Assembly: GCA_029881675.1 (NCBI GenBank)
Contig: JAOUMD010000010.1
Span: forward strand, 1-35,195
Direction: 5' to 3'
DNA length: 35,195 nucleotides
Source of the DNA: Minisyncoccota bacterium
GTDB lineage: Bacteria > Patescibacteriota > Microgenomatia > UBA1400 > PJMF01
Position numbers and translations under genes: made by a program. Under the pieces are notes generated by a model. That model did no database searches and was not told the DNA's origin. It saw nothing but the letters and a program-made list of their open reading frames with translations. Every line of letters starts with the position of its first letter. Within the stretch, counting starts at the first letter, position 1. Shown here one piece after another: positions 5,237 to 26,262 of the stretch.

Positions 5237-5271
5237 TTAATCCTTTTTTTACTAATAATTTAGTTCCATCT

Positions 5272-5301
5272 AGTATAGATTGTTTTTGACGAGAGAGTCA
5301 A
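5272..5301 (-). promoter_or_regulatory. Canonical sigma-70 promoter of the major pilin
   Basis: On the minus strand TTGACT (5296-5301), an 18-nt spacer and TATACT (5272-5277) give a near-consensus promoter. The expected leader is about 29 nt and carries the AAGGA site. It lies in the 86-nt gap after the PilM/LytR_C gene. Confidence 0.8.
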
Positions 5302-5322
5302 CTCTTTATTTAAAATGACAAG

Positions 5323-6447: not shown

Positions 6448-6448
6448 A

Positions 6449-6856: not shown

Positions 6857-6858
6857 AT

Positions 6859-7380: not shown

Positions 7381-7383
7381 TGA

Positions 7384-9294: not shown

Positions 9295-9785
9295 TCTGTA
9301 ATTACTCCTAATTTATTAAAATTATATGTTTCTACTTTTCCAGAATTACTTTGTAGCTGAAATGAAGCTGCAGTTGGGTTAAACCCTGAAATTTCTCCGC
9401 TATTTTGTAAAAAAACGATACTATTAGTAGAAAAATTAATATTTGTAATTGTGTTTGTTGCGGGAAGTTTGATAACAAAATTATCTGTAGCACTTGGATT
9501 GTATGCAGATCCAGTAAATAGTGTATATTGATCACTTTCAAGATAAATACCATAAGAACTGCCATCCCCAGAACCACTAGTATTTCCAGTCATAGCATTA
9601 AATTGTTGTGACTTTAAATCTGAAACAATTGATTGACTCCCAGTAGCAAAACTGGCTGTAGGAATAAGGTTAGAAAGACTGATAGTAGAAATACCAATTA
9701 AGGTGGAAAAAATAGCGATCACAATTAATAACTCAATCAAAGTAAAACCAGCGTTTTTTTTGTTTAGTAAATTAAGTTTTATCAT
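9291..9785 (-). CDS. Minor prepilin (GspH/FimT-like)
   Basis: The protein has 164 aa. The leader NLLNKKNAG leads into the prepilin helix FTLIELLIVIAIFSTLIGISTISL with Glu5, then a beta-rich domain with no Cys. Its start codon overlaps the pilC stop (ATGA), and it overlaps the propeller prepilin at the other end, so translation is coupled through this stretch. It probably belongs to the tip-priming complex. Confidence 0.86.
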   Translation of the reverse strand: MIKLNLLNKKNAGFTLIELLIVIAIFSTLIGISTISLSNLIPTASFATGSQSIVSDLKSQQFNAMTGNTSGSGDGSSYGIYLESDQYTLFTGSAYNPSATDNFVIKLPATNTITNINFSTNSIVFLQNSGEISGFNPTAASFQLQSNSGKVETYNFNKLGVITE

Positions 9786-10828
9786 CTTTGGCCGACTTGA
9801 CCAATCAAGCCATAAATAGGAGCAATAATAGCCATCATCATTCCACCTACTACAACTCCTACAAAAATAAGCATGATAGGTTCTAGTAATGCAGTAACTT
9901 TGTCTAATGATTTACTTACTGTATAGTCCATTTTTTCTGCGATATTTTTCATTGAGCTTTCAATACGGCCAGTTTTTTCTCCAACTTCAATAAGTTTAAT
10001 TGCCACACTAGGAAAGACATTTTTTTCTGTTTTTAAGACTTGTGAGAACTGTTTACCCTCTGATGTTTCTTTTAATGCTTTGTGAATTAATCTTTCAACT
10101 TTCCTCTTTATGATAACTTCTCTAGCTAGTTCCAAAGCATAAACAAAGGGAATCCCAGAAGATAAAAGTAGGTACATACTTCTTGAGAAACGAGTGACAT
10201 CAATTTCTTCCATCAAGCGGGAAATCATTGGTAGTGAGAATAATACTCCAAGGAAAATCTCTCTTTTTTGGTTATAAAGAAAAATCATTAAAATAATAAA
10301 TGCAACAAAACCAGCTGTTAGATATGGCCAATAAGAAAGTAGTGTTTCAGACATGAAAATGAGAACTTTTGTTGGTAAGGGAAGTTCAACTTTAAGTCTT
10401 GAGAAAACACTAGAAATTTTTGGGATAACTACAACCAACATGGTAAAAAGAACCATTACAAAAACGAACATAACAATGATTGGATAAGTTAGGGCTGTTT
10501 TAATTTTATCTGTAAACTCCATTTCTTTTTGGAGGTTTTTGCTTAAATCAACAAGAGTAGTCTCTAAGTTTCCAGCCTCCTCAGAAGCTTTAATTAAATT
10601 AACTGAGATAGAGTTAAAAACTCTAGGAAATTTGGCAAATGTTGTGTGAATGTGATGCCCAGCACTAAGGTCTTTAGTGAGTTGTTCTAAGATTTTTTTT
10701 TGGCCACCTTTGGCATCTTCAAGTAAAGTTTCAATAGCTTCATAGGTAGGAATACCTGCCTCAAGCATAGTTGCTATGTTGGTAATTAGAACAATTTTGT
10801 CGTTTCCAGATATACGTAGTTTATTCAT
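9782..10828 (-). CDS. pilC: Type IV pilus inner-membrane platform protein PilC
   Basis: PilC spans the inner membrane and links the assembly ATPase to the growing fibre. The 348-aa chain has two T2SSF repeats (about 10-130 and 210-335). Membrane helices lie at about 112-137, 160-185 and 315-340 (IMLIFVGVVVGGMMMAIIAPIY, a typical PilC/GspF ending). Both repeats show the ASEEAGNLE / VGEKTGRIE core. It starts 10 nt after pilB, which confirms co-transcription. The length is a little shorter than the usual 400 aa because the cytoplasmic N-terminus is trimmed. Confidence 0.95.
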   Translation of the reverse strand: MNKLRISGNDKIVLITNIATMLEAGIPTYEAIETLLEDAKGGQKKILEQLTKDLSAGHHIHTTFAKFPRVFNSISVNLIKASEEAGNLETTLVDLSKNLQKEMEFTDKIKTALTYPIIVMFVFVMVLFTMLVVVIPKISSVFSRLKVELPLPTKVLIFMSETLLSYWPYLTAGFVAFIILMIFLYNQKREIFLGVLFSLPMISRLMEEIDVTRFSRSMYLLLSSGIPFVYALELAREVIIKRKVERLIHKALKETSEGKQFSQVLKTEKNVFPSVAIKLIEVGEKTGRIESSMKNIAEKMDYTVSKSLDKVTALLEPIMLIFVGVVVGGMMMAIIAPIYGLIGQVGQR

Positions 10829-10838
10829 ATTGATTTAA

Positions 10839-12566
10839 TTACTCTACGGCTTTTGTAACTCTCAAGACTTCTTTTACAGTGGTTAATCCTTGAGAAATTT
10901 TGCTTAATCCATCTTCAAACATAGTAGTCATACCTTCTTCAATTGCTTGCTTGGTGATTGTTTCAGCAGTGGCTTTTTCAGAAACTAAATTTCTAATATC
11001 TTCACTAAGTTTAATAATTTCATAAACACCGACTCGTCCTGAGTATCCACTGTTATGACAGAATTTACATCCTTTGCCTTTGCTGATAATTAACTTGCTT
11101 TTTTTGGCTGATTTTGTTTTGGGCTTTCCTTCTTCAGTTGCAGCATTTACATCAAAGTATTTGCTAACTTTATCTTCAGGGAAGAATTTGAGGAGTTCTT
11201 CACGTGGGGTTTCAACGCCCATCTTACATTTGTCACAAATTTTTCTAACAAGTCTTTGGGCAATGATTAGGTTAACTGTTGAAGCTGCTAAGAAAGGTTC
11301 AACTTCCATATCAAACAGACGAGGTAGTGCTGTGGCGGCATCATTGGTGTGAAGGGTGGAGAATACTAAGTGACCAGTCAATGCCGCATTAACAGCAATG
11401 CTAGCAGTTTCATTATCACGGATTTCACCAACAAAAATACTATCAGGGTCCTGTCTCAAAATTGATCTCAACCCGTTTGCAAAAGTTAGATTTGTTTTTT
11501 CATTAACTTGAACTTGGTTAGCTCCTTGAATTTGGTATTCGATAGGATCTTCTATAGAAGTAATATTTACCTCTCTAGTATTGATGTGTTTAAGGATTGT
11601 ATATATTGTCGTTGTTTTTCCTGATCCAGTCGGACCAGTACAAACAATCATTCCATAAGAGCTTTTGAAAGCTTGAGTTACTTTAGTGAGATCTTTTTTA
11701 CTCATGCCCAAATCAGCTAAGGTAGAAAATTGTGCTTTTGATCTAAGTAAACGCATAACAACTTTTTCTCCGTAGGCGATAGGGAGAATAGAGATACGAA
11801 GATCCAGTCTTTCATCATCAACTTTTGTACTAATCTTTCCGTCTTGTGAAGATAAATGCTCATCAATTCTTAAACGAGACATGACTTTAATTCTTGTCAC
11901 AACACGGTCATGAAGCTCTTTAGAAAGAATTAAAATATCTCTCAAAATACCATCGACTCTAAAGCGAATTAAAAAATCTCTTTCTCTTGGCTCAATATGG
12001 ATATCAGAAGCACCTTCTCTTTGGGCAGTCTCTATTAGAAGATCGATCATTTTCTTGACGGGTGGATCATGAGCGGCTGTAGTAATAATTTGAGAACGGT
12101 CCTCACTCAGTAGATCTTTAAAAAGTTTTTGGTAGTCAGTTTTATAATGGATGAAAGCTTTTTCTAAATCTTTGGCTGTAGCATAATATGCTTCAACCTG
12201 AAGTCCTGTCTTGTGGGCGATCATCTTTAATAGATCAATATTGTCAGGATTGGAAATAGCGACTTTGAGAGTTTTTTCATCCTTATAAAAAACTAAAGAG
12301 CCAGTTCTATGAGCAATTCTTTCTGGAATTATAGCTAAAACGGGAGGAGATAGTTCAACTTTGGAAAGTTCTACAAAAGGAATTTTAAGACTTGTCGCAA
12401 CAAGTTTTCCTAGTTTAAGATCACTAATAACTTTTTTTCTAATTAAGGCTTCTTCTGTACTAATATTCTCTTGCTTTGCATAGGCAATAACTTGATTTAG
12501 TTCAGCCTCAGTAAGGAGTTTGGCTTGAAGAACGATAGTCTTGAGCTTTTCTTTGGGCAGATGCAT
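10839..12566 (-). CDS. pilB: Type IV pilus assembly ATPase PilB
   Basis: This hexameric cytoplasmic ATPase powers pilus extension. The N-terminal 150 residues form the MshEN/T2SSE_N domain. The ATPase core has the Walker A GPTGSGKTTT, an Asp box around SIEDPIEYQ, the Walker B-like DSIFVGEIRD and the His box TGHLVFSTLHTND. A CxxC...CxxC zinc motif (CDKCK and CKFCH) lies near the C-terminus, as in PilB/GspE but not PilT. A Lys-rich insertion (KPKTKSAKKSKL) separates the two Cys pairs. The length of 575 aa is normal. It is the first gene of the pilus operon. No pilT and no prepilin peptidase lie in this window. Confidence 0.96.
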   Translation of the reverse strand: MHLPKEKLKTIVLQAKLLTEAELNQVIAYAKQENISTEEALIRKKVISDLKLGKLVATSLKIPFVELSKVELSPPVLAIIPERIAHRTGSLVFYKDEKTLKVAISNPDNIDLLKMIAHKTGLQVEAYYATAKDLEKAFIHYKTDYQKLFKDLLSEDRSQIITTAAHDPPVKKMIDLLIETAQREGASDIHIEPRERDFLIRFRVDGILRDILILSKELHDRVVTRIKVMSRLRIDEHLSSQDGKISTKVDDERLDLRISILPIAYGEKVVMRLLRSKAQFSTLADLGMSKKDLTKVTQAFKSSYGMIVCTGPTGSGKTTTIYTILKHINTREVNITSIEDPIEYQIQGANQVQVNEKTNLTFANGLRSILRQDPDSIFVGEIRDNETASIAVNAALTGHLVFSTLHTNDAATALPRLFDMEVEPFLAASTVNLIIAQRLVRKICDKCKMGVETPREELLKFFPEDKVSKYFDVNAATEEGKPKTKSAKKSKLIISKGKGCKFCHNSGYSGRVGVYEIIKLSEDIRNLVSEKATAETITKQAIEEGMTTMFEDGLSKISQGLTTVKEVLRVTKAVE

Positions 12567-14347: not shown

Positions 14348-14422
14348 TCTCCGATAGCTCAGCGGCAGAGCAGGAAGCTGTTAACTTCAAGGTCCTAGGT
14401 TCGAATCCTAGTCGGAGAGCCA
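14348..14422 (+). tRNA. tRNA-Asn (GTT)
   Basis: The acceptor stem TCTCCGA/TCGGAGA is a perfect 7 bp. The D arm is GCTC-AGCGGCA-GAGC. The anticodon loop CTGTTAA gives anticodon GTT, which reads AAC and AAT. The T arm is CCTAG-GTTCGAA-TCCTAG-like. The discriminator G and CCA are encoded (14419-14422). The outermost anticodon-stem pair is a G-A mismatch. The last 15 bases also encode the C-terminus of the recombinase on the opposite strand, marking this as the integration site of the adjoining element. Confidence 0.95.
14408..14422. other. Probable attachment site inside tRNA-Asn
   Basis: The 3-prime 15 bases of the tRNA overlap the last codons of the recombinase gene (reading W-L-S-D-stop on the minus strand). 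This places one element junction at or very near here. I found no second copy of the tRNA 3-prime end in the window. Serine recombinases need only a 2-bp shared core, so the absence does not disprove it. Confidence 0.5.
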
Positions 14423-15907
14423 ATTAGAACTTGGTGCATATTTTAGCACTAAGTTAAACGGAAATTTAACCGTATATCGCAGTATTTCATCATCTAAAGT
14501 TACGTTCGAAAGTACTAAGTTTAACAAAGCTCTTTTTTCTAGTGGTTTAGAACGGGAGAAGATGTCAGCAGAGCGTGATCCAATTTCCACCAGATGCGAA
14601 GTCGTCATGTAGTATTCTTTATTGGCTAATTCTAACTTAGCAATTTGCTCTCTTAGATCGTGGATCTTATCTTCATTTTTTTTCTTTATTTCAAGAAAGT
14701 GTTCCATAGTAATATACCCATCTAATTGGTTGTCGTATGCAGTTGTTGTGCGAGTCTCAAATCTTTTTATTTCTCCGTTCAAATGATTAAGCTCTTTTTC
14801 AAAGAAAGAGTTTTTATCTTTGTGAGATTCTTTCAGGGAGCGGGTTATTTCTTCTAGTTTTTCTTTTGGTACTTTGAGGTTATCAAATATATTGAAGAAC
14901 TGTTCGTCTATTGTTGATTCTTTGACGCTTTTAACCTTCTCATGTTTTTTGTGATAGTTGGTGCAATGATAATAAACATGGTGATTATATTTACCACTTT
15001 TTAATTTTCTTTTTTTACGCTCTGGTGTGATTCTACAACCACACTTATAGCAAGTAATTAAACCTCGGTACGCAAACTCTAAGCCAGCGTATTTGAAGGG
15101 TTGTGTTCTTTGATTTCTTTTATTTAGAAGATCTTGGGCTTTTTGAAAAGTCTCATTGTTAATGAATAGTTCGTAATTATGTGAGTATTCTTTGTCTCCA
15201 TGCTCAATGATTCCAATATAAAATTTTTTGGTAAGAATAAAGTGAACCATACTCTTAGATTTGTTGATGTTAAATTTCTTTTTTAGTTTATTGGAAATGT
15301 TGAGGATTGAGTAGTTCTCACTTACGTACCAATCAAAGATTTGTTTTACTACGAGGGAGTTAAACTTATCAGGAACTATCCACTTTTTCTTGCTCTCTAA
15401 GGTGACATTTTTATACCCAAAGGGAGCCATGCCTGGCAACTCACCGTTGTCTAATTTTCTTTTACGCGAGATGCGCTCATCATCTTTAAGCCTGTTTATG
15501 GTTTGTTTTGCTAAAAAAACTTTTAAGTCCCAGTCTTGAATATCTCTCCCAGTGGATTCTTTTGTGATTATGAGTCTGTCATTAACAAAATGGATTTGCT
15601 TATCATATTCTAGTCTCAGGTTATCTAAATCAACAGCATCTCTAAAGTTTCTAGTAATGCGATCTACTCTGTAGGTGATAATTGCAGCAATTTTTTTATT
15701 TTTTCTAACATAATCAATCATTTCATTGAACTTTTTTCTTATTTTTCTATCAGCACTTTCTTGAAAAACGAACTCGTCTTTTTCATCAACTGTAAAACCT
15801 TTTTTTCCAGCATATTTTCTTAAAGCAGGGAGCTGTATTTCTTTTAGTGATAGCCCTTCTTCTTCCTGACGTTTAGTAGAGACGCGGGCTAATATGACTG
15901 CCTTCAT
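14408..15907 (-). CDS. Large serine recombinase (integrase)
   Basis: This enzyme would integrate and excise the element by serine-mediated strand exchange. The N-terminal resolvase domain starts MKAVILARVSTKRQ with the catalytic Ser near residue 10 and an RVDRITRN motif. A recombinase domain with GMAPFGYK follows, then a zinc ribbon (CYKCGCRITPE...YHC), then a long coiled coil of about 370-430, as in large serine integrases. The length is 499 aa. Its final residues (NWLSD) and stop come from tRNA-Asn. The start overlaps the xis-like gene by 4 nt. Confidence 0.93.
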   Translation of the reverse strand: MKAVILARVSTKRQEEEGLSLKEIQLPALRKYAGKKGFTVDEKDEFVFQESADRKIRKKFNEMIDYVRKNKKIAAIITYRVDRITRNFRDAVDLDNLRLEYDKQIHFVNDRLIITKESTGRDIQDWDLKVFLAKQTINRLKDDERISRKRKLDNGELPGMAPFGYKNVTLESKKKWIVPDKFNSLVVKQIFDWYVSENYSILNISNKLKKKFNINKSKSMVHFILTKKFYIGIIEHGDKEYSHNYELFINNETFQKAQDLLNKRNQRTQPFKYAGLEFAYRGLITCYKCGCRITPERKKRKLKSGKYNHHVYYHCTNYHKKHEKVKSVKESTIDEQFFNIFDNLKVPKEKLEEITRSLKESHKDKNSFFEKELNHLNGEIKRFETRTTTAYDNQLDGYITMEHFLEIKKKNEDKIHDLREQIAKLELANKEYYMTTSHLVEIGSRSADIFSRSKPLEKRALLNLVLSNVTLDDEILRYTVKFPFNLVLKYAPSSNWLSD

Positions 15908-16095
15908 GCTTTTCGCCCTTCTTTTTTTACTTTTGATTTTGTGATGAATTCTTCCAGAGTTTCTTTACTAATTCTGTATTGTTTGCCAAATTTATAAGCT
16001 GGGAGTTTACCGTTTTTTGCCCATCTAAAAATGGTCATGTAGCTCATCTTTAGAAGATCAGCGACTTCATACAGAGTATAAAATTTATCATTCAT
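15904..16095 (-). CDS. Excisionase-like HTH protein
   Basis: The protein has 63 aa. TLYEVADLLKMSYMTIFRWAKNGKLPAYKFGKQYRI is the MerR-like winged helix of the HTH_17/excisionase family. It precedes the recombinase with an ATGA overlap, so the two are produced together. It is the natural candidate for the directionality factor that lets the recombinase excise the element, or for a local repressor. Its promoter is clearly recognisable. Confidence 0.88.
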   Translation of the reverse strand: MNDKFYTLYEVADLLKMSYMTIFRWAKNGKLPAYKFGKQYRISKETLEEFITKSKVKKEGRKA

Positions 16096-16105
16096 ATTTA
16101 ACTTT

Positions 16106-16134
16106 ATTTTACATTAATTAACATATTTAGACAA
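16106..16134 (-). promoter_or_regulatory. Promoter of the xis-int operon
   Basis: On the minus strand TTGTCT (16129-16134), a 17-nt spacer and TAAAAT (16106-16111) lie 10 nt before the ATG at 16095. Transcription of xis-int is therefore separate from the upstream rep genes. Confidence 0.7.
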
Positions 16135-16140
16135 CAATCA

Positions 16141-17253
16141 CTAAATATCAAATACCTGAATAGGTCTAAATCTTTCAGTTTCTGAAATAATTTTATTTAT
16201 TAGCAGTTCTTTTTTTTGGTTTACAACGGACTCAGATTTGTTCTTGAATGAGTACCATGCACTTGACCCAGCTGGAAATACTATCTCTCTTGCAGTTCTA
16301 AGATCATGTTCATTGACTATGTTTTGGAAACCGAGGTATTGAAGAAGGAAGCTAGGTTTTAGTTCAGGATTGCTTCTGGCTAATGATAATAGTTGGTCAG
16401 AAAATGGCTTATCATCTTTTTTAGTAAAAATTATTTTTTCTTTTATCTCGTTGAGAGTAAGCAAGCATATTAATTTAGCAACTTTAGTTGAAAATAAATT
16501 GCCAAACGTTGGTTCAATATCCTGATTAATTTTTTTAAGAACAGTACGGATTCTTTTTCGATTATTTAACCGAATTTCCACCCTCAGTACCTCAAAAGGA
16601 GGGCTTTTTCTTTGTTTGAGCTTAACTGTATGAAAAAAATCACGCTGAGGAGCTTTGTCATTGTCAACGCTTTTCTTTGGGCTGATATTTGCTTTTGCTA
16701 GATCTTTCATCTTGTCATAAAAAATTATTTCAAAAGTGTTGGTGCGGTAGCTAAGACTATGACCTTCGTTTCTGTAATCTGCTTGATTTGCATCAAAAAC
16801 TTTACTGATGTTTGCTCTTCTAATTTCATCCATATAGGTGAAAGGAAATGAATAATCAGTTAAGACAAAATTTTTCCCATAATCAATTTTTGAAACAAGA
16901 GAGGTTGAAAGCTGTTCTAGCTCAATCTTCACTCCCATTTCTAGCAATGTGTCTTGGAGCCTATGAAGCACCTTGATAAAATCATCTTCGGAGACTTCAT
17001 CAAGATTGTTGCCAAACATGAGCTTAGGAATTGAAAATTTGATATATAGGGTTCTTTGTATGCCCATAGGTCTAACGTGCTTATAGAGTGTTAGGTTGGG
17101 TCTATATTCTCCTTCTATTTGTTTGTAGTTTTGTACTGATCTTTGATATTGCTTGAAAGAAGCAAGCACAAATTTTGCATTAGGAGTAAATTTTTCAGGA
17201 TCAATAATTTGGAAGTCAGGATAGTTAATCACTAACACTATGGTATCTATCAT
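16141..17253 (-). CDS. Gene II/X-type rolling-circle replication protein
   Basis: The protein has 370 aa. It begins MIDTIVLVI, the usual opening of phage/plasmid replication proteins of the gene II/X (Phage_CRI) group. It carries FEIIFYDKMKDLAK and FEVLRVEIRLNNRKRIR, which match the YDK and LR-x-E-x-R blocks of that family. These proteins nick the double-strand origin and start rolling-circle replication of filamentous phages and small plasmids. I cannot point to the catalytic Tyr with certainty. It overlaps the SpoVG-like gene by 29 nt. It suggests the element has a circular, self-replicating stage. Confidence 0.72.
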   Translation of the reverse strand: MIDTIVLVINYPDFQIIDPEKFTPNAKFVLASFKQYQRSVQNYKQIEGEYRPNLTLYKHVRPMGIQRTLYIKFSIPKLMFGNNLDEVSEDDFIKVLHRLQDTLLEMGVKIELEQLSTSLVSKIDYGKNFVLTDYSFPFTYMDEIRRANISKVFDANQADYRNEGHSLSYRTNTFEIIFYDKMKDLAKANISPKKSVDNDKAPQRDFFHTVKLKQRKSPPFEVLRVEIRLNNRKRIRTVLKKINQDIEPTFGNLFSTKVAKLICLLTLNEIKEKIIFTKKDDKPFSDQLLSLARSNPELKPSFLLQYLGFQNIVNEHDLRTAREIVFPAGSSAWYSFKNKSESVVNQKKELLINKIISETERFRPIQVFDI

Positions 17254-17515
17254 TGTTATTGCTCATTACTTTTTCGTACTTATTTATAATCACTTGTTCT
17301 AATTCTTGGCTTTTGTCTCTATTGATTGGGTGATAAATGTTGATTGATGTGTTTGCCAATTTTTTCGTGGGGAAGGTGAGTCTGTAGCCACCTTCAAGCT
17401 TGGTATAAATACCAATTGATCCAAGGTAAAGCCACTCATCAATTACGCAGCTGGCAAAGGCAATTAAGCCATTATTGGGTTTAACTGGAGTAATTTCTAC
17501 TTCGTTAATTATCAT
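17225..17515 (-). CDS. SpoVG-like RNA/DNA-binding protein
   Basis: The protein has 96 aa. The core EVEITPVKPNNGLIAFASCVID...GGYRLTFPTKK...IYHPINRDKSQELEQVIINKYEKV follows the SpoVG fold in order, including the FPxKK and HPIN signatures. SpoVG proteins bind nucleic acid and tune gene expression in Firmicutes and are also found on mobile elements. The position between a small unknown gene and rep suggests control of replication or rep expression. The overlaps with both neighbours imply one transcript. Confidence 0.78.
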   Translation of the reverse strand: MIINEVEITPVKPNNGLIAFASCVIDEWLYLGSIGIYTKLEGGYRLTFPTKKLANTSINIYHPINRDKSQELEQVIINKYEKVMSNNNDRYHSVSD

Positions 17516-17720
17516 GACTTCTTTCTGGGTAATACTTATCTCGATACTCTAAATCTTCTTTCTTTAGTCGTTGATCTATTTGAGAAAGTAATTCAAAGAA
17601 GGTAATGAGGTTATTTAATTCGTCTTTTTGGGAGAGGGGATTTTCTGTAGAAGAACAGTCAGCATCATTTGGATGTGAAGAATGTTGTTCGCTAGTAGTC
17701 GCTACGTTTTGTGTAAGCAT
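17505..17720 (-). CDS. Small acidic protein of unknown function
   Basis: The protein has 71 aa with no recognisable family. The first 30 residues are polar, probably disordered, and rich in Ser, Asn and His. Residues 32-58 (DELNNLITFFELLSQIDQRLKKEDLEY) should form an amphipathic helix. It overlaps the SpoVG-like gene by 11 nt and appears to be first in that operon. A perfect 8-bp inverted repeat lies 2 nt before its ATG. Confidence 0.6.
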   Translation of the reverse strand: MLTQNVATTSEQHSSHPNDADCSSTENPLSQKDELNNLITFFELLSQIDQRLKKEDLEYRDKYYPERSHDN

Positions 17721-17722
17721 TG

Positions 17723-17753
17723 CACCAAGATTTCGTTACTTGTCTTCTTGGTG
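17723..17753 (-). repeat. Inverted repeat beside the start codon at 17720
   Basis: CACCAAGA and TCTTGGTG pair perfectly over 8 bp with a 15-nt loop. On the minus-strand RNA the stem ends 2 nt before the ATG and would hide the ribosome entry site, so it may control translation of the rep operon, or be an origin stem. Confidence 0.55.
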
Positions 17754-17762
17754 TATCAAAAA

Positions 17763-17803
17763 AAGCCACTAAGAAGAGAATAATTCTCAATCTTATTTGG
17801 CTT
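17763..17803. repeat. Compound hairpin in the candidate origin
   Basis: Outer arms AAGCC/GGCTT enclose AAGA/TCTT and a perfect GAGAA-TAA-TTCTC stem-loop. The arms are interrupted by short bulges. It lacks a T-tract on the minus strand, which argues against a simple terminator for the gp3-like gene. Confidence 0.5.
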
Positions 17804-17951
17804 CTTTATGTCTTATTATGGCTAATTCGCCCGCTCGACTTCTTTAATCCCAACTGAGTAATATAAATATATCACTGCAAAATAGATTGGTAAATAGGCA
17901 AAAAACGTGTATTTTGTTACACAAATATCAGATGCACATAAGAAAATTTTC

Positions 17952-18344
17952 TCATTCCTCCCGACTCCTCATTAGAGTTAGAGCGTCAGCCAACAACTCA
18001 GGAGAAATGTTTGAAAAGTTGTTTTGACTGCTATCTACTAGTGGTTCTTTCTCTCTCATTCCATGACTTGCTTTGAGTAAAAACATGGAGAATCTAGTGT
18101 TGTAGTTACCTTGAAGACCATTGGTGATAAGTAGCTCTCTCTGTGCATCTCTGAGATTATCCATAGTCTGCGAAAAATCAGGATATAGCTTCTCCCAGTC
18201 ATAAAGAGTCCTAGTTCCCAGCTTTAGTTTGGCAGAAAGACCCTCAATTGTTGGAAAAACACCCTCTTTTAGACACTTGTTTGTGTAAGTAGTTGCAGCA
18301 GGGGGGATTTTGGGGCTATATTTAGTTGGTCGTCCTCTTTTCAT
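17952..18344 (-). CDS. gp3-like small terminase (DNA-packaging) protein
   Basis: The protein has 130 aa. It starts KRGRPTKYSP, then FPTIEGLSAKLKLGTRTLYDWEKLYPDFSQ, a helix-turn-helix of the kind seen at the N-terminus of phage DNA-packaging gp3/terminase small subunits. NGLQGNYNTRFSMFLLKASHGMREKE is the second hallmark block of that family. Small terminases bind the packaging site of phage DNA. Here no large terminase or structural gene accompanies it. It could redirect a helper phage, as satellite islands do, or act simply as a DNA-binding regulator. The promoter is leaderless (6 nt). Confidence 0.75.
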   Translation of the reverse strand: MKRGRPTKYSPKIPPAATTYTNKCLKEGVFPTIEGLSAKLKLGTRTLYDWEKLYPDFSQTMDNLRDAQRELLITNGLQGNYNTRFSMFLLKASHGMREKEPLVDSSQNNFSNISPELLADALTLMRSREE

Positions 18345-18350
18345 ACTCTA

Positions 18351-18356
18351 AGTATA
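18351..18356 (-). promoter_or_regulatory. -10 box of the gp3-like gene, leaderless
   Basis: TATACT on the minus strand ends 6 nt before the ATG at 18344. It lies inside AACTATACT, whose perfect inverted copy is at 18444-18452 in the opposing hsd promoter. Confidence 0.6.
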
Positions 18357-18384
18357 GTTACTCAAGACGGGATTTGTGTCTTTT

Positions 18385-18408
18385 TGTAGGCATGTAATCA
18401 TTACACAA
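18385..18408 (+). repeat. Split repeat, upstream copy (TGTAGGCAT...CATTACACAA)
   Basis: TGTAGGCAT (18385-18393), then GTAAT, then CATTACACAA (18399-18408). The same words, fused as TGTAGGCATTACACAA, recur at 25715-25730 beyond the cargo operon. The site also contains the palindrome GTAATCATTAC. It sits between the divergent gp3-like and hsdR promoters, where an operator would be expected. Confidence 0.55.
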
Positions 18409-18446
18409 GAGCTATTTAGCTATCTTTCTAATCAAAAGTGGTCAAC

Positions 18447-18459
18447 TATACTCTATAAT
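18447..18459 (+). promoter_or_regulatory. Promoter of the restriction operon
   Basis: Two overlapping candidates, TATACT (18447-18452) and TATAAT (18454-18459), lie 47-59 nt before the hsdR ATG. Unlike most promoters in the window this one leaves a leader of about 40 nt. The leader has only a weak AAAGAAG ribosome site. No clear -35 box, which suggests dependence on an activator or weak basal expression. Confidence 0.5.
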
Positions 18460-18505
18460 GAGGGTAAGTTTTAATAATTAAAGATGTAAAGAAGTAGTAA
18501 ACATA

Positions 18506-20842
18506 ATGCCAGAAGCTAATGCCAGAATTAAAATCAACAAATTACTTGAAAAATCAGGTTGGAGATTAGTTGATTCTGATGAGGGTAAGGCTAGCGTTAC
18601 TGTTGAAGATCATCTAATAGTATCTCCAAATAAAGAAACAGACACACTGGGTGAAGATTTTGAAAAAGCTAAGGGTGGTTTTATTGACTACTTGCTGTGG
18701 GGACAAAATAAAAAACCACTATGTGTATTAGAAGCAAAAAGAAGTTCTATTCATCCTTTAGATGCTAAAGAACAAGCAAGAACATACGCTAATTCTATAG
18801 GGGTAAAGTATGTGATTTTATCCAATGGAGAGTTGCATTACTTTTGGGATATTGAGGTCGGAAATCCTGAAAAAATATATCATTTTCCAAATCAAGAATC
18901 ATTAGAAAAAAATGTTTCTGCTACTAAGGATACAAATGCTCTGGTTAATGAGGTAGTTGGAGATGACTACATTGCTTTAACACAGATGCCAGACTATCAA
19001 CTTGACCCTCGTTGGAAAACAGAGGAAGGAAAGAAAGAGTTGATGGAGAATGAAGGGCTTAGATTTTTAAGGTATTACCAAAAAGAAGCTATAGAATCAT
19101 TGCAACAAGCTATTGCAAAAGGTAAGAAGAGGTTTTTATTTGAGATGGCTACTGGTACTGGAAAAACACTGACTAGTGCAGCACTTATTAAGTTATTTAT
19201 TAAAACAAAGAATGCTTCAAGAGTATTGTTTCTTGTGGACAGATTAGAGCTTGAAAATCAGGCAGAGAAAAACTTTAGGGAATACTTGAGCCCAGATATT
19301 ACAACTGTGGTTTATAAGCAAAATAAAAATAGTTGGAGTAGAGCTGAGGTAGTTGTGACAACTATTCAAAGCATAATGCATGACAATAAGTTTGAAGACT
19401 TATTTAGTCCGACAGACTTTGACTTAATTATTTCAGACGAGGCTCATAGGGCTATTTCTGGAGAGGGTTTAAGTAGAAATGTTTTTGATTATTTCACTGG
19501 TTACAAACTTGGTTTGACTGCGACCCCAAAAGATTATTTGAAAAATTTAACAGATAAAGATCTGTCTGAAAAAGATCAGAGAGAGCTTGAGAGAAGAACT
19601 TTATTTTCTACATACGAAACCTTTGGTTGTAATAGTGGAGATCCAACATTTAGATATGATCTTTTAAGAGGTGTTAATGATGGATTTTTGATCAATCCCT
19701 ACGTATTAGATTGTAGAACTAAGATTACGGCTCAATTGCTTTCAGATGATGGATATGCAGCAGCTAGTGAAAAACAAACAGAAGAAGCGGAGGAAGAGGT
19801 CTATTTTGCAAAGGATTTTGAGAAAAACTTTTTTAGTCCTAAAACAAATCAGCAATTTGCAGAAACATTTTTTGCCAATGCACAGAGAGATTCCGTTAGT
19901 GGAGAAATAGGAAAGACACTTATATTTTGTGTGAGTCAAAGTCACGCCAGAAAAATGGCTCAGATATTAAATCAAATGGCTCATGAGCTATACCCTGGTA
20001 AATATAATTCTGATTTTGCACTTCAAATAACATCTAGTGTAAAAGATGCTCAGCCATTCACTATTAGATTTGCTAACAATAATCTTAATGGTAGAACGGC
20101 TTTTTTACCTGGATATAAATCAAGTAAAACAAGAGTCTGCATAACAGTGGGCATGATGACTACTGGCTATGATTGTTCAGATATTTTGAACATTTGTTTA
20201 ATGAGACCGATATTTTCTCCACAAGATTTTGTTCAGATAAAGGGCAGGGGCACCAGAAAACACCTATTTTCTTATAAGAAAAAGTTAAATGGAACTGAGG
20301 TGGCTGAGCAAAAACCAAAGGAAGAGTTCTACTTATTTGATTATTTTGCCAACTGCGAATACTTTGAGGATAAGTTTCCTTATGACGAAGTTATTGATTT
20401 ACCAAAACAAAGAGAAAAACTAATTCCGACTGGTTCTGATCCAGGTGTTTCTTATCCACTTCCAGACGGTCAAAAAGGGTTTACTCGGTATGGTCTGGAT
20501 CCATTACAAGGTATAAAAGGACTCAAATTAAGTGATGGTGGAATGAGAATAGATAGAGAGCTTTATCAGGCTGTTCAGCGAAAGAAGCAAGATCATGAAG
20601 AGCAGATTAAAAAATCTGATAAATTATGGAGTAAGTTTTCAAGCATTAACCTTATTCCAAAAGAAATTATTGATCAGGTCGAAGATATTTTTTATCTTTG
20701 CACACTCAACGAATCAATACTCAGTGATTTTAGTGCTAAAGAATTTTCCAACTATTCTAGTGATGCGGAGTTGTTTAATAGTCTGAATACTATTGGTGCA
20801 AAATGGATAGAAAATATAACTCATTTCTTAAATAAAGAATAA
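18506..20842 (+). CDS. hsdR: Type I restriction subunit HsdR
   Basis: This is the DNA-translocating and cleaving subunit. The N-terminal PD-(D/E)xK nuclease has GGFIDYLLWG and VLEAKRSS. The SF2 motor has MATGTGKT at about 214-222, SDEAHRAI near 310 and LTATP. The second RecA lobe carries TTGYDCSDILN and FVQIKGRGTRKH. The C-terminal 150 residues are the coupling domain. At 778 aa it is short compared with EcoKI-type subunits (about 1,100) and closer to the EcoEI-like group. It is the first gene of a tight operon, with the HsdM-S fusion 13 nt downstream. Confidence 0.93.
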   Translation: MPEANARIKINKLLEKSGWRLVDSDEGKASVTVEDHLIVSPNKETDTLGEDFEKAKGGFIDYLLWGQNKKPLCVLEAKRSSIHPLDAKEQARTYANSIGVKYVILSNGELHYFWDIEVGNPEKIYHFPNQESLEKNVSATKDTNALVNEVVGDDYIALTQMPDYQLDPRWKTEEGKKELMENEGLRFLRYYQKEAIESLQQAIAKGKKRFLFEMATGTGKTLTSAALIKLFIKTKNASRVLFLVDRLELENQAEKNFREYLSPDITTVVYKQNKNSWSRAEVVVTTIQSIMHDNKFEDLFSPTDFDLIISDEAHRAISGEGLSRNVFDYFTGYKLGLTATPKDYLKNLTDKDLSEKDQRELERRTLFSTYETFGCNSGDPTFRYDLLRGVNDGFLINPYVLDCRTKITAQLLSDDGYAAASEKQTEEAEEEVYFAKDFEKNFFSPKTNQQFAETFFANAQRDSVSGEIGKTLIFCVSQSHARKMAQILNQMAHELYPGKYNSDFALQITSSVKDAQPFTIRFANNNLNGRTAFLPGYKSSKTRVCITVGMMTTGYDCSDILNICLMRPIFSPQDFVQIKGRGTRKHLFSYKKKLNGTEVAEQKPKEEFYLFDYFANCEYFEDKFPYDEVIDLPKQREKLIPTGSDPGVSYPLPDGQKGFTRYGLDPLQGIKGLKLSDGGMRIDRELYQAVQRKKQDHEEQIKKSDKLWSKFSSINLIPKEIIDQVEDIFYLCTLNESILSDFSAKEFSNYSSDAELFNSLNTIGAKWIENITHFLNKE

Positions 20843-20855
20843 TAGAAAGAAAACT

Positions 20856-23282
20856 ATGCTTAATTCGGCTACAAAGAGAAAAATTGACAATGCTAGAGAT
20901 ATTTTGGTTGGTAAAATTCCTATGCCAACTACTCAGGTGGAACAGATAACTTTAGCTCTTATTTATAAATTCATGTCTGACATAGATAAGAAGTCAAAGG
21001 CTTTAGGTGATACCAGCGGTTTTTTTGCAAATGGTTTTGAGAAATATGCTTGGGATAATTTGATGGACAAATCTCTTTCAGCAAGAGATAGAGTCCAGCT
21101 TTATAGTGAAGGTTTGGAGAAGATGAGTAAAAATCCTCACTTACCTCAGTTATTTAGAGATATTTTTAAGAATGCTTTTTTACCATTCAGATCACCCGAA
21201 ACTCTCAAGTTATTTTTAGAACAAATTGACGAGTTTGAATATGATCATAGTGAGGAACTTGGCAATGCATTTGAATACCTGCTCTCAGTAATGGGGAGTC
21301 AAGGTGATGCTGGTCAATTCAGAACACCAAGACATATTATTGATTTTATTGTAAAAGTTGTTGATCCATCAAAAACAGACTCTATTCTTGATCCCGCATG
21401 TGGAACAGCTGGTTTTTTGATTTCAGCATACAAGCATATTAAAGAAAAGGACTTAACAGCAGAAGAGCAGAAGAAGTTAACAGACAATTTTGTTGGCTAT
21501 GACATTTCTCAAGATATGCAGCGTTTAGCAATGGTCAATATGTATTTACATCATTTTCCCAATCCTCATGTTTTTGAATATGATACGTTATCTAGTGAGG
21601 ATAGGTGGGATGATGACTTTGATGTCATATTAGCTAATCCGCCATTTATGACTCCAACTGGGGGAATTAAGCCCCACTCCAAGTTTTCTGTTCAAACTAC
21701 AAGAGCCGAAGCACTTTTTACTAGTTATATTATGGATCACTTAAATGAGAACGGGAAAGCTGGTGTTATTGTTCCTGAGGGCATTATTTTCAAATCTGAT
21801 AATGCCTATAAATCTCTTAGAAAGATGATGATAGACAATAAATACCTTTGGGCTGTAGTTTCTCTTCCGGCAGGAGTCTTCAATCCTTATTCTGGTGTGA
21901 AAACAAGTATCTTGTTTTTAGATAAAAAGATTTCAAAAAAAACAGATAAAGTTTTATTAATCAAAATAAATAACGATGGTTTTGACTTGGGTGCTCAACG
22001 CAGGTTAATCAAGAAGAATGATCTGATTGAAGCAATTAATATAATAAAAAAATATAAAAAGGGCTTGAATAATGGTGAGGATACCAACTTAAATGATAAC
22101 CAATTAGCTCTCCTAGTTGATAAAAAAGAATTTAAGGAAAAAGATTATAGTCTTAGTAGTGAGCTGTATGAGGCAGAAGTCAGCGATCGTTTCTCAAAAT
22201 TTGATTTTGTAGAAATTAATTCTCATATAAATACAATTTCTCCCCCAAAAAAAATTAAGAAGACTGATTTTTTACAAAGGGGTTTATATCCAATTATTGA
22301 TCAATCACAAAACGATATTGCTGGTTTCACCAATGACAGTACTGCGTTATTAGAAGTAAGCAGTCCGCTAGTAATCTTTGGGGATCATACATGTATCGTT
22401 AAATATATTGAAAATAGTTTTGCTCAAGGTGCTGATGGAATCAAGATAATAAGTTCTAGTGAAAATTTATTACCAAAATATCTTTATTATGTTTTGAAAT
22501 ACAAACCTCTTAAATCGAATGGTTACCAGCGTCATTTTTCAAAACTAAAGAGATACAAGATTCCCCTCCCTTCATTGCTAATTCAGCAAGAAATAATTGA
22601 AGAATTTGATAGTTACCAAAAGATCATTGATGGAGCTAAGCAGGTGGTCAATAATTATCAACCAACCTTTGGAATTGAGAATGATTGGAAATTAGTAAAG
22701 TTTTCAGAAGCACCTTTAGACATAATTGACGGTGATAGAGGTGTAAACTATCCTAAAAAAACTGAGTTTACGAATGATGGTTACTGCTTATTTTTGAACA
22801 CAAAAAATGTTAGATCAGATGGGTTTTTATTTGATAATCTTGAATTTATAAACAGGGAAAGAGATGAGAAGCTAAGAAAGGGTAAGTTAAATAGAAATGA
22901 TGTTGTTATTACAACAAGGGGAACCATTGGTAACGTCGGTTGGTATTCATATGAAGTTCCATACAAACACATTAGAATTAATTCTGGAATGATAATTCTG
23001 CGTACAGATGCTAAGGAATTAAATCCTGAATATCTTTTTTATTTTTTACAGAGTGAGTTTTTTAAAAAACAGGTTGATAAAATGTCATCTGGAGCAGCAC
23101 AGCCACAACTTCCCATAAGGACATTAAAAGAAATTATTGTTGCAATGCCATCTCTAAGCACTCAATCAAAAGTTGTTGAAGATATTAAGAGCGATAGTTC
23201 ACTTGTAAAATCAACTCAACTTCTTATTGAAAAATTTGAATATAAAATCAAATTGCGTATCGATGAGATCTGGGGAAAATAA
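20856..23282 (+). CDS. hsdM-hsdS: Fused HsdM-HsdS (N6-adenine methylase plus specificity)
   Basis: The protein has 808 aa. Residues 1-60 are the helical HsdM N-terminus. Residues 130-380 form the methylase, with the SAM-binding DPACGTAGF at about 179 and catalytic NPPF at about 261. From about 425 the chain continues into two target-recognition domains of HsdS type. TRD1 ends with IPLPSLLIQQEIIEEF; TRD2 has RGTIGNVGWYSYEV and ends IVAMPSLSTQSKVVEDI. Both carry the coiled-coil conserved regions. One polypeptide thus replaces two M subunits and one S subunit, so the assembled stoichiometry must differ from classical type I enzymes. The next gene starts 2 nt later. Confidence 0.92.
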   Translation: MLNSATKRKIDNARDILVGKIPMPTTQVEQITLALIYKFMSDIDKKSKALGDTSGFFANGFEKYAWDNLMDKSLSARDRVQLYSEGLEKMSKNPHLPQLFRDIFKNAFLPFRSPETLKLFLEQIDEFEYDHSEELGNAFEYLLSVMGSQGDAGQFRTPRHIIDFIVKVVDPSKTDSILDPACGTAGFLISAYKHIKEKDLTAEEQKKLTDNFVGYDISQDMQRLAMVNMYLHHFPNPHVFEYDTLSSEDRWDDDFDVILANPPFMTPTGGIKPHSKFSVQTTRAEALFTSYIMDHLNENGKAGVIVPEGIIFKSDNAYKSLRKMMIDNKYLWAVVSLPAGVFNPYSGVKTSILFLDKKISKKTDKVLLIKINNDGFDLGAQRRLIKKNDLIEAINIIKKYKKGLNNGEDTNLNDNQLALLVDKKEFKEKDYSLSSELYEAEVSDRFSKFDFVEINSHINTISPPKKIKKTDFLQRGLYPIIDQSQNDIAGFTNDSTALLEVSSPLVIFGDHTCIVKYIENSFAQGADGIKIISSSENLLPKYLYYVLKYKPLKSNGYQRHFSKLKRYKIPLPSLLIQQEIIEEFDSYQKIIDGAKQVVNNYQPTFGIENDWKLVKFSEAPLDIIDGDRGVNYPKKTEFTNDGYCLFLNTKNVRSDGFLFDNLEFINRERDEKLRKGKLNRNDVVITTRGTIGNVGWYSYEVPYKHIRINSGMIILRTDAKELNPEYLFYFLQSEFFKKQVDKMSSGAAQPQLPIRTLKEIIVAMPSLSTQSKVVEDIKSDSSLVKSTQLLIEKFEYKIKLRIDEIWGK

Positions 23283-23284
23283 GC

Positions 23285-24793
23285 ATGAAGCCACTTTCTA
23301 AATCTGACTACATGCTTTTTCTTCGTCATCCAGCATGGCTGTGGTTGAAGAAGTTTGAAAAACATAAGCTCCCACCCGTTGATGATAACTTACAAGCTAT
23401 GTTCGATGCTGGCAATGAGTTTGAGAGCTATGCTAATAGGCTTTTTCCTGATGCAGTAAAACTAGGGTTCAATAACTACAGCGAGTATCAATCTTTGACA
23501 TACAGGACTGAGCAAGAAATAATTAGAGGCACTAAGATTATCTTACAAGGAAGATTGGAAGCCGATGGAATTACCTGTATTTTTGATGTTTTGATTAGAG
23601 TTGGTGATAAAGAGTTTGACCTGATTGAAATCAAAGCTAGTACAAAATCTAAGCCAGAACATGAATATGATTTAGCTTTTCAAATGTTGGTTTTAGAGAA
23701 GGCTGGTTATTCAGTGAGGAACATTTCTGTTATTCATGCCAACAAAGAATATGTGAGAGAAGGTGAGATTGATCCTGTGGGAATTACTTCTATTACTGAT
23801 GTAACAATGGAGGTTAAAGCCCTAAAGAGCACTACAGAACAGCAGTTAATAGAAGCTTTCAAGTTATTGAGTAGTGGAGAATGCCCAGATTTATCTCCAA
23901 GATATGTAAATAGAATAGGTGTTCCTAAAGTTAGGTGGTTTGAGGATTGGATGGAGATATTCACTACCTTGAAGCCCAATGATGATCCTTACAATGTTTA
24001 CAAAATAAGTTATCCAAACGCTGAGCAGATAGGAAAGTTAGAAGATGCTGGTATTACACAACTAGCTGATATTCCAGAAGATATTGCTCTTAGAGCTAAG
24101 CAGATCGCACAGATACAAACAACGAAGACTAATAAAAGGATATTAGAGTTGGATAAAATAAAAGATTTTCTTGATACTTTCCATTATCCTCTCTATTTCT
24201 TTGATTATGAAACTTTTTCTTCGGTGATTCCTCAGTTTGATCTGTGTAAGCCTTACACGGATTATCCATTTCAATACTCGCTTCATGTTTTGGATTCACC
24301 TGATGCTGAGCTTAGACATGTAGAATATCTTCATGCCGATAAGACAAATCCTATGCCAGGTTTACTAAAACAGTTAAATAATGATATTGGTGATAGCGGC
24401 ACTGTTCTCACTTGGAATATGAGTTATGAAAAGGGTTGCAATGATCGTATGGCTGCTTTGTATCCAGAACATGCTGATTTTTTGTCTCAGCTTAACGAAC
24501 GGATTGATGATTTGATGATTCCTTTTTCTAAGATGTGGTTTTTTGATAAGGATTTCTTTGGTAGTGCATCCGTAAAGAAGGTTATGCCAGTTTTAGCTCC
24601 TGAGCTTAGTTACAAAGAACTAAATGTTGGAGATGGTTTATTAGCTAGAAGGATGTGGACTCAGACGGTCTTAGAGGGCAGACATGAGGCTAATAGAGAT
24701 GAAATTATGGATGATTTAAGTAAATACTGCACCTTAGATACTTTTGCGATGGTTAGGATTTATGAGGAGTTAAAAAAGTTGGTTGAAAATTAA
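23285..24793 (+). CDS. DUF2779-family double nuclease (PD-D/ExK plus DnaQ-like)
   Basis: The protein has 502 aa. The N-terminal half has the Cas4/RecB layout: an initial LSKSDYMLFLRHPAWLW, then GRLEADGITCIFDVL...FDLIEIKAST, giving the Asp and the ExK of a PD-(D/E)xK nuclease. From about 300 a DEDD exonuclease fold follows: YFFDYETFSSVIP (Asp, Glu), then VLTWNMSYEKGCNDRM, then YCTLDTFAMVRIYEEL (last Asp). This combination is DUF2779, a family without an established role that I know of. It lies 2 nt after the M-S fusion and 3 nt before the glycine-zipper gene, so it should be made at matched levels with the restriction enzyme. Confidence 0.82.
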   Translation: MKPLSKSDYMLFLRHPAWLWLKKFEKHKLPPVDDNLQAMFDAGNEFESYANRLFPDAVKLGFNNYSEYQSLTYRTEQEIIRGTKIILQGRLEADGITCIFDVLIRVGDKEFDLIEIKASTKSKPEHEYDLAFQMLVLEKAGYSVRNISVIHANKEYVREGEIDPVGITSITDVTMEVKALKSTTEQQLIEAFKLLSSGECPDLSPRYVNRIGVPKVRWFEDWMEIFTTLKPNDDPYNVYKISYPNAEQIGKLEDAGITQLADIPEDIALRAKQIAQIQTTKTNKRILELDKIKDFLDTFHYPLYFFDYETFSSVIPQFDLCKPYTDYPFQYSLHVLDSPDAELRHVEYLHADKTNPMPGLLKQLNNDIGDSGTVLTWNMSYEKGCNDRMAALYPEHADFLSQLNERIDDLMIPFSKMWFFDKDFFGSASVKKVMPVLAPELSYKELNVGDGLLARRMWTQTVLEGRHEANRDEIMDDLSKYCTLDTFAMVRIYEELKKLVEN

Positions 24794-24796
24794 CAT

Positions 24797-25561
24797 ATGT
24801 CAAATAAAAATAAAAAGAAAATTGTTGATCTTGGAGTAGAAACTGGAGTTGGTCTTGCAGGAGCGGGGGCAGGATTTGCTATAGCTGGTCCCATCGGTGC
24901 TTTATTAGGTCCTGCAATTAGCCCAGTAGTTTCTGATTTTTTGAAGAGGGCATTAACTAAAAGAGAGAAAGACAAGATTGAGAAAGTAGCAATAATGGCT
25001 ATTCAGTCAATCAATGAAAAAATATCAAAAGGGTCTAAGCCAAAATTTGATACAAAAAAGAAAAAGGATAAGGCAAAAGAATTATTTGAGGGAGTTCTTC
25101 TAAATGCTAGAGATACTTATGAAGAGAAAAAGCTGCCTTTAATCGCAAATATATTTGCAGTTGCTCCTTTTACAAATTCACCTGTAGAAAATTTAATACA
25201 GGCTTTATCTATAGCTGAGAGATTAACGTATAGACAATTATGTATTTTGACGATAGTTGGTAATAATGGCTATGCAAACAGTCCAATTTTAAGTGATAAG
25301 CAATTTAAGGAACAGCATGTTGATAAGGCTCATGACGAATTTAGAGATGGTATTTATTACGATATTCTTCTAATGATAAACCAAGGAATTCTGGTGCAGA
25401 TGGAATCAGATTTCAGTCATATTTCAGGGATGGTTGTTATAGCAGACATAATACCTCAAAGGCTTAGGTTGTATGCCTTAGGAAGATTGATGTTTAATGC
25501 AATGATGCTAGATTCGATTGAAGAAAAAGATTTAACAGAGATTAGAGAAATTCTAAAATAA
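24797..25561 (+). CDS. Glycine-zipper protein, candidate membrane effector
   Basis: The protein has 254 aa. Residues 12-46 (GVETGVGLAGAGAGFAIAG then PIGALLGPAI) form a glycine-zipper hairpin able to enter a membrane. A charged segment follows (KRALTKREKDKIEKV), then a soluble domain with AKELFEGVLLNARDTYEEKKLPLIANIFAVAPF and IAERLTYRQLCIL. I recall similar two-part orphans near defence genes but cannot name a family. A membrane-zipper head and a sensor-like tail are the architecture expected of an abortive-infection effector; this is inference. It is the last gene of the restriction operon. Confidence 0.75.
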   Translation: MSNKNKKKIVDLGVETGVGLAGAGAGFAIAGPIGALLGPAISPVVSDFLKRALTKREKDKIEKVAIMAIQSINEKISKGSKPKFDTKKKKDKAKELFEGVLLNARDTYEEKKLPLIANIFAVAPFTNSPVENLIQALSIAERLTYRQLCILTIVGNNGYANSPILSDKQFKEQHVDKAHDEFRDGIYYDILLMINQGILVQMESDFSHISGMVVIADIIPQRLRLYALGRLMFNAMMLDSIEEKDLTEIREILK

Positions 25562-25672
25562 TTCTCATTATCTCCATCTAAGCAAGTCTATTGCTTTACT
25601 CCTCGCTGGTACCATCGGGAGTCCCAAAGGTTTTTTAATGAGTGTCCCCGTGGGGTTGTGGTGCGTTGACAT

Positions 25673-25723
25673 ATGCACACGCTTCGGACGGGTGCTGGGG
25701 GCACCCGCCTTGCGTGTAGGCAT
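25673..25723 (+). repeat. Long GC-rich hairpin
   Basis: ATGC plus ACACGC pairs with GCGTGT plus GCAT (a 2-nt AG bulge between them). Inside, CGGGTGC pairs with GCACCCG around a TGGGG loop. All 17 base pairs are Watson-Crick. Its 3-prime arm overlaps the downstream copy of the split repeat. Confidence 0.75.
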
Positions 25724-25730
25724 TACACAA
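25715..25730 (+). repeat. Split repeat, downstream copy (TGTAGGCATTACACAA)
   Basis: This continuous 16-mer corresponds to the two words found at 18385-18408. With the preceding G it forms GTGTA-GGCAT-TACAC, an inverted repeat like the one at 17907-17922. It lies 154 nt after the cargo operon. Confidence 0.55.
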
Positions 25731-25866
25731 CGTTGTAATTAGTACTGGATTTCACTAATAAATGAGCTAATTCTTGGGTAAAATGATTTATTTCCTCGAG
25801 TGAATAGGATAAGGACTGATCTTTGTATCCGTTCCGTAACGAGTCCTGTAGGGGGAGCAAAGTATG

Positions 25867-25892
25867 AAAAGACCCAATGGGGTCTTTTTTTT
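25867..25892 (+). terminator. Intrinsic terminator of the structured stretch
   Basis: GACCC-AATG-GGGTC flanked by AAAA and eight Ts. It is almost the same sequence as the terminator at 26237-26262. Confidence 0.88.
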
Positions 25893-25960
25893 AAGGTATT
25901 GAGTAATTTAGAATATAGTTGTAATGTTTATAGATACATAATAATTAAAGGGAGATAATC

Positions 25961-26152
25961 ATGGTTACAGGATATTGCGTTAAATGTAAGAAAAAAGGTG
26001 TTGAGTTAACTACACCAGGAATTCACAAAACTAAAAAAGGTGGCTTTATGGCTAAAGGAAAGCATGAAGAGTGTGGAACAACTGTTTGTGCAATGATGTC
26101 TAAAGACAATGCCCAAAAAGCATTAGAAGATGGTGCAACAAAAGAGTACTAA
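25961..26152 (+). CDS. DUF5679-like zinc-ribbon protein
   Basis: The protein has 63 aa. GYCVKCKKKGVEL provides CxxC, followed by KKGGFMAKGKHEECGTTVCAMM with further Cys. My impression is that this is the small DUF5679-type protein common in CPR genomes; its role is unknown, perhaps nucleic-acid or ribosome related. It is one of the few genes here with a good Shine-Dalgarno sequence (AAAGGGAG, 6 nt from the ATG), so it is expected to be well expressed. Terminators stand on both sides, making it a monocistronic unit. Confidence 0.85.
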   Translation: MVTGYCVKCKKKGVELTTPGIHKTKKGGFMAKGKHEECGTTVCAMMSKDNAQKALEDGATKEY

Positions 26153-26236: not shown

Positions 26237-26262
26237 AAAAAGACCCAATTGGGTCTTTTTTT
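26237..26262. terminator. Bidirectional terminator after the DUF5679-like and CPBP genes
   Basis: AGACCC-AATT-GGGTCT with A-tract and T-tract on either side works in both directions. It separates the convergent genes ending at 26152 and 26261. A second, T-less hairpin (ACTACTC/GAGTAGT, 26179-26203) precedes it. Confidence 0.88.

Follow-up and report, generated by a model that had tools for sequence, protein, structure and literature searches.

A probable right junction of an integrated plasmid-like element, with a displaced serine integrase tail, in a Microgenomatia genome

Introduction

Does a strongly folded, apparently gene-free segment beside a defence operon encode a new RNA, or something else? 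The segment lies at 25562-25900 of a 35,195-nt stretch of a Microgenomatia genome (the window). An initial annotation read it as one unit, a hairpin-dense non-coding segment ending in a terminator. It also proposed that the segment might be an undescribed RNA, belonging to the island or regulating the defence operon.

The segment is three units, not one: a stem-loop block, an attR site with an integrase tail, and a terminator outside the element. The sequence gives no clear indication of a new free-standing RNA, and a good indication that the integrase exchanges its own tail at integration. With fairly high confidence, we read the segment as the right junction of a plasmid-like element integrated in the 3' end of a tRNA-Asn gene. 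Its attP would lie inside the 3' end of the integrase gene, whose tail is swapped on integration, and the block stands beside this tail.

Results

The element and its surroundings

The putative integrated plasmid-like element spans about 14408 to 25858, and its features are listed in Table 1. The protein encoded at 16141-17253 has no Pfam, NCBIfam or clear PHROG match. Its family in these elements is likely the replication initiator. A small-terminase/gp3-like protein is encoded at 17952-18344, with no other recognised phage genes in the element. To the left of the island (4763-12566), a type IV pilus-like operon with pilins, an ATPase and a membrane protein was recognised by eye.

Table 1. 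Features of the element, of its right junction and of the right neighbour (window positions)
Feature	Position	Strand	Basis
tRNA-Asn(GTT), integration target; 3' end forms attL	14348..14422	+	ARAGORN, Rfam RF00005; related integrases end in tRNA-Asn or tRNA-Gln
Large serine integrase	14408..15907	-	Pfam Resolvase 2.9e-12, Recombinase 1.6e-9, Zn_ribbon_recom 3.5e-7
Small HTH_17 protein, candidate directionality factor or regulator	15904..16095	-	Pfam HTH_17 1.4e-14
Conserved plasmid-type protein, Rep candidate	16141..17253	-	Common to L029
SpoVG-like protein, adjoins Rep candidate as in L029 and G231	17225..17515	-	Pfam SpoVG 4.9e-10
Type I restriction R (cargo)	18506-20842	+	
Fused type I restriction M-S (cargo)	20856-23282	+	
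DUF2779/Cas4-like (cargo)	23285-24793	+	
Unknown protein, last cargo gene (cargo total 18506..25561)	24797-25561	+	
Conserved stem-loop CTTTACTC...GGGAG...AAAG, then T-run; left half of block	25594..25639	+	Common to G003, G011, G016, G031, G267
GC-rich hairpins, most of the compound stem of the initial annotation	25640..25713	.	Sequence and length vary among relatives
18-nt hairpin motif GTGTAnnnnTTACAC, right end of block	25714..25731	+	In 6/6 members
Putative displaced C-terminal integrase tail LPLQDSLRNGYKDQSLSYSLEEINHFTQELAHLLVKSSTNYNVV, then stop	25723..25857	-	Frame join, comparison with relatives
Putative attR core AACGAGTCCTGTAGGGGGAGC	25838..25858	+	Motif recurrence, antisense tail coding
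Intrinsic-terminator-like hairpin and T-run	25867..25895	+	Outside attR, before DUF5679 gene
DUF5679 gene, right neighbour	25961..26152	+	Pfam DUF5679 1.3e-6

Composition, folding and coding capacity

The hairpins are real, and the description of the segment as a GC-rich island in AT-rich DNA is borne out. With 64% GC, the 84 nt at 25638-25721 are the most GC-rich of the window, whose mean is 34% (sd 5.7). The lowest-energy 60-nt fold of the 35 kb is at 25661-25720 (-29.5 kcal/mol), and the best one outside the region has -20.8. The compound hairpin that had been proposed at 25673-25723 forms in the fold prediction, with about 20 pairs including bulges, around 25673-25726. Its sequence and length are not conserved in relatives. 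On the plus strand, folding is no better than that of dinucleotide shuffles, both for the whole segment (z -1.2) and for 25588-25735 (z -1.5). The minus strand folds better than its dinucleotide shuffles (z -3.5 and -3.7, respectively).

Neither strand of 25562-25900 has a gene of at least 60 aa. Nevertheless, the segment is not wholly non-coding by origin: its minus strand at 25723-25857 is the reading frame of an integrase tail. An ORF of about 35 codons through the GC-rich part was considered and set aside: the G003 and G011 frames show no convincing alignment. Every Rfam family stays below its gathering score in the segment, and even the best matches at E <= 10 fall far short of it. BLAST of the segment against plasmid and phage collections gives no match.

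A serine integrase cut at a tRNA gene

The integrase of the window ends inside the tRNA-Asn gene. More precisely, its last residues are ...SSNW followed by LSD, and the stop codon lies in the tRNA-Asn antisense. Homologs occupy the same rpoD-tRNA-Asn locus in G010, G006, G025, G007 and G053. We made a wider search with the integrase of a circular relative, L029, and inspected the C-termini. At least 20 integrases break off at Trp-Leu codons (or their equivalent), antisense to the CCA end of a tRNA. This tRNA is mostly Asn, and Gln in three cases. The integrase fragments of G016 and G031 are broken at the same TGGCTC point. A contig of G016 (L111, G016:C8, 5391-7038) carries the closest relative of the window integrase (65%); the break is again at this att point, and IS3-like genes come after it.

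Integrases that are not at a tRNA mostly keep their tail. This is the case in L029, in G329b (an internal member of a tandem array), in the second integrase of L033 and in L026. L029 is a 7716-bp contig with an uncut integrase gene of 540 aa. Its ends overlap by 141 bp, which indicates a circle of 7.6 kb. It shares the Rep-candidate and SpoVG-like genes with the window element. The intact gene spans the att site in this circle, and the tandem members G329b and L033 keep their tails; this puts attP within the integrase gene. L029 (JAKPQD010000365.1) is labelled Bacteroidota. With a Patescibacteria-type integrase, Rep candidate and SpoVG-like gene on its plasmid, it is probably misbinned. In G329:C3 (about 65570-86924), a single tRNA-Asn has three consecutive serine integrases beside it; the tRNA truncates the one nearest to it, and the middle one keeps its tail.

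The probable attachment site and displaced tail

When 52 relatives were searched, short matches fell on two pieces of the segment, apart from each other. The right one, TATCCGTTCCGTAACGAGTCCTGTAGGGGGAGC, occurs again in G020 and G021. G020 has several copies, all in one orientation, in the region after rpoD and tRNA-Asn, as in the window. Likewise, 25818-25858 matches motifs in other Microgenomatia tRNA-Asn hotspots. We also scanned one genome per species (84,980 species) with the att pattern. This gave 19 stretches, and contigs that are from Patescibacteria or Patescibacteria-like hold more than half of these. For the matches in Paenibacillus, Flavobacterium, Tepidanaerobacteraceae and Alphaproteobacteria, the context does not fit, and we took them as chance. 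In viral contigs, the att and block patterns gave nothing, or chance matches in coding DNA.

Read antisense, 25857-25723 is an open frame, LPLQDSLRNGY..., similar to the C-terminal tails of large serine integrases. In antisense, the att motif reads as the beginning of LPLKDLF..., in frame with the bodies of serine integrases (L033, L029 and others). In L029, L033, L026 and G329b, these LPLxD... tails join the integrase bodies in frame. When the window integrase is joined at its Trp codon to the 25857-25723 frame, the result is an uninterrupted protein of 540 aa ending in LPLQDSLRNGYKDQSLSYSLEEINHFTQELAHLLVKSSTNYNVV.

The site lies at the end of the element opposite to the integrase gene, which abuts attL (14408-14422 versus 25838-25858). 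The same kind of att site is found at the ends of related elements (G020, G021, G025, G231, L021, L028 and others). The arrangement with the integrase body at the tRNA and the tail at an att site further right is present in the window, G025, G231, L021 and L028. The tRNA 3' end and attR have only a short common core, GAGC, with partial similarity further left. Taken from the sequences, the simplest and most likely account is that 25838-25858 is attR and that attP is inside the integrase gene.

This attR is probably the partner of the window integrase. Old att sites do build up in hotspots, though, and an open frame of 44 codons is by itself nothing unusual, occurring in 6.7% of shuffles. The site at 25858 could instead be the fossil of an older element, the present one ending elsewhere in the hotspot. 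Arrays of att sites do exist in G020 (three strong), a degenerate att-like stretch was seen by eye after the DUF5679 gene, and DUF5679 adjoins the block in G003 and G011 as well. However, the tail joins the window integrase in frame, and no second att motif is present in the window at up to 6 mismatches; the sole one is correctly oriented. We therefore rate a fossil site as rather unlikely and keep the attR reading. With this site as the right junction of the island, the initial annotation was correct in assigning the segment to it.

Other att-like sites were observed in different contexts. In L010 (G020:C49, 1282-13293), a hotspot after tRNA-Asn contains small gene cassettes with at least three strong att-like sites between them, all in the same orientation. 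It could be either an integron-like array or a fossil record of insertions. In L011 (G021:C2, 3001-3688), the frame of a CPBP protease runs, at the start of the frame, into an integrase tail and att site, as if fused by insertion. In two different families, the att site has a GIY-YIG-like protein immediately to its right, and the two proteins are similar (L112, 12899-13210; L169, 1773-2075).

The stem-loop block

For the left piece (25594-25641), the first match was in G011 only. G003 was added by a pattern, and G016, G031 and G267 by a covariance model. The block (25594-25731) is thus present in at least six genomes, the window included, with its end motifs in a conserved order and strand. 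All six have CTTTACT, a strand that reads GGGAG or GGGAC, and a run of four to six T; the 18-nt hairpin motif follows about 28-88 nt later. The GC-rich stretch between the end motifs is the least conserved part, though it holds the hairpin that was most striking at first sight. The covariance model also matched G591, beside a ribosomal-protein-like coding sequence (by eye), and L011, inside a protease gene; both were rejected as chance. The matches in G198, G294, G383 and G391 look like chance by eye.

In five of the six genomes (G000, G003, G016, G031 and G267), an att core whose antisense frame is tail-like was recognised by eye 220-270 bp to the right of the block. The tails of G003, G016, G031 and G267, also read by eye, are weakly similar. 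In G011, the block is directly before DUF5679, with no tail between, and in G003 the DUF5679 gene adjoins it as well.

The left half could be a true small RNA gene (helix, U-run, GC-rich arm and terminal hairpin) acting on the integrase or on neighbours, with attR merely adjacent. The constant order and strand of the end motifs, the minus-strand folding and the hairpin motif at 25714-25731, in which 97% of pair cells form and at most 60% when slid, agree with such a gene. However, the changes in this motif are one-sided only. Two-sided compensatory changes are absent from it, and a single pair occurs in a doubtful alignment; with only six sequences, the check for covariation that had been suggested gave no convincing two-sided change. 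In addition, the centre is not conserved, the plus strand folds no better than shuffles, promoter-like sites in the region are at chance level and Rfam gives no match. A small RNA gene seems to us improbable. The more specific proposal of an RNA regulating the defence operon finds no support in the form given: the right half is an att site with a displaced integrase tail, and the GC-rich centre of the left half varies. Moreover, the gene left of the block is on the minus strand in G003 and G267, so a plain 3' UTR of the defence operon does not account for the block.

The block might also act as DNA, being a rolling-circle origin, a single-strand origin or the oriT of the element. It is hairpin-dense, the short conserved TTTTTAAT adjoins a stem near the element end, and the element has a Rep candidate. 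However, this candidate belongs to no recognised family, and the T-run motif is altered in G016 and G031. Furthermore, the block does not accompany a cognate Rep: it is absent from the circular relative L029 and from other elements with the Rep candidate and integrase. An origin is accordingly a reading that we do not expect to hold. We prefer to see the block as a candidate terminator or insulator between convergent transcription of the cargo and of the integrase, although the minus-strand gene to its left in G003 and G267 fits this less well.

The terminator outside the element

The segment does end in a terminator, as first annotated: a perfect 9-bp stem with a T-run at 25867-25888. Nevertheless, it lies outside the element and serves the far side. 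Being right of attR, it does not end an RNA of the hairpin region in the circular element. A near-identical second terminator follows DUF5679 at about 26237-26262, and the pair brackets this gene.

Discussion

The events at this locus would be as follows. In the circular form, the serine integrase gene would contain attP within its 3' end. By recombining with the tRNA gene, it would be cut after a Trp codon. The body would remain at the tRNA and gain the short ending LSD from the antisense tRNA. The tail of about 45 codons would move to the other end, where it would be read antisense through attR (25857 to 25723). The block, with its T-run on the plus strand between the tail and the cargo, would stop cargo transcripts from running antisense into the integrase gene. 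The swap of the tail may alter the activity of the integrase, for instance by favouring stable integration. The truncation at the same codons in about 20 relatives, the tail-coding attR sites, the intact gene of the circular relative and the block recurring beside tail and att site are the observations behind this scheme.

The closest analogue in logic is found in archaea. In the 'suicidal' tyrosine integrases of SSV1, pTN3 and pT26-2, attP is in the integrase gene, and integration splits the gene and leaves its pieces at the two ends (PMC8371274). Self-disrupting integrases, described on tyrosine recombinases, were stated to be exclusive to archaea (PMC8371274). The archaeal enzymes have their catalytic part in the separated C-terminal piece. 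In contrast, the serine integrase of the bacterial element retains the catalytic part, which is N-terminal, and exchanges a short C-terminal tail only. The window integrase appears to work like a suicidal integrase, but judged by its domains it is no member of the class, Pfam Resolvase and Recombinase being of the serine type.

The closest bacterial analogue is the integration-dependent immunity of mycobacteriophages. There, attP is in a coding gene, and integration removes a C-terminal extension, which can switch the protein state (PMC9635641). However, the gene cut in that system is a repressor gene and the integrase is of the tyrosine type; here, the serine integrase gene itself is cut. Genomic islands at tRNA sites (Islander) integrate at tRNA 3' ends, and displaced fragments mark their ends (PMC4383910). 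They have a tyrosine integrase and a displaced tRNA fragment, whereas our element has a serine integrase and a displaced integrase tail. In our literature searches, no self-disrupting serine integrase of bacteria came up, although this does not prove that none has been described. Self-disrupting integrases have been described only for archaeal tyrosine enzymes, and the serine version therefore seems to be a new variant.

Integron cassette arrays resemble the hotspots described here in being rows of short cassettes with similar recombination sites between them and a fixed anchor adjacent. The hotspots differ from integrons in their serine integrase, their tRNA anchor and their att sites coding for integrase tails; no IntI or attC-type site was seen in them. 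Tentatively, and with more doubt than confidence, we propose a family of Patescibacteria serine integrases with attP in their own gene. Each tRNA integration would swap the C-terminal tail for a stub encoded by the tRNA, and excision or tandem insertion would restore one. The tail would then be a built-in direction switch. The hotspot would grow as a row of cassettes similar to an integron, with an integrase tail at the end of each and a dedicated stem-loop RNA or DNA element in some.

Serine integrases normally need a separate directionality factor, and directionality is a central question for them. If our reading is true, a bacterial serine version that swaps only its C-terminal tail would be a simple way to make integration directional. 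Likewise, tail-coding att sites would mark the borders of islands in Patescibacteria, a group with poorly mapped mobile elements.
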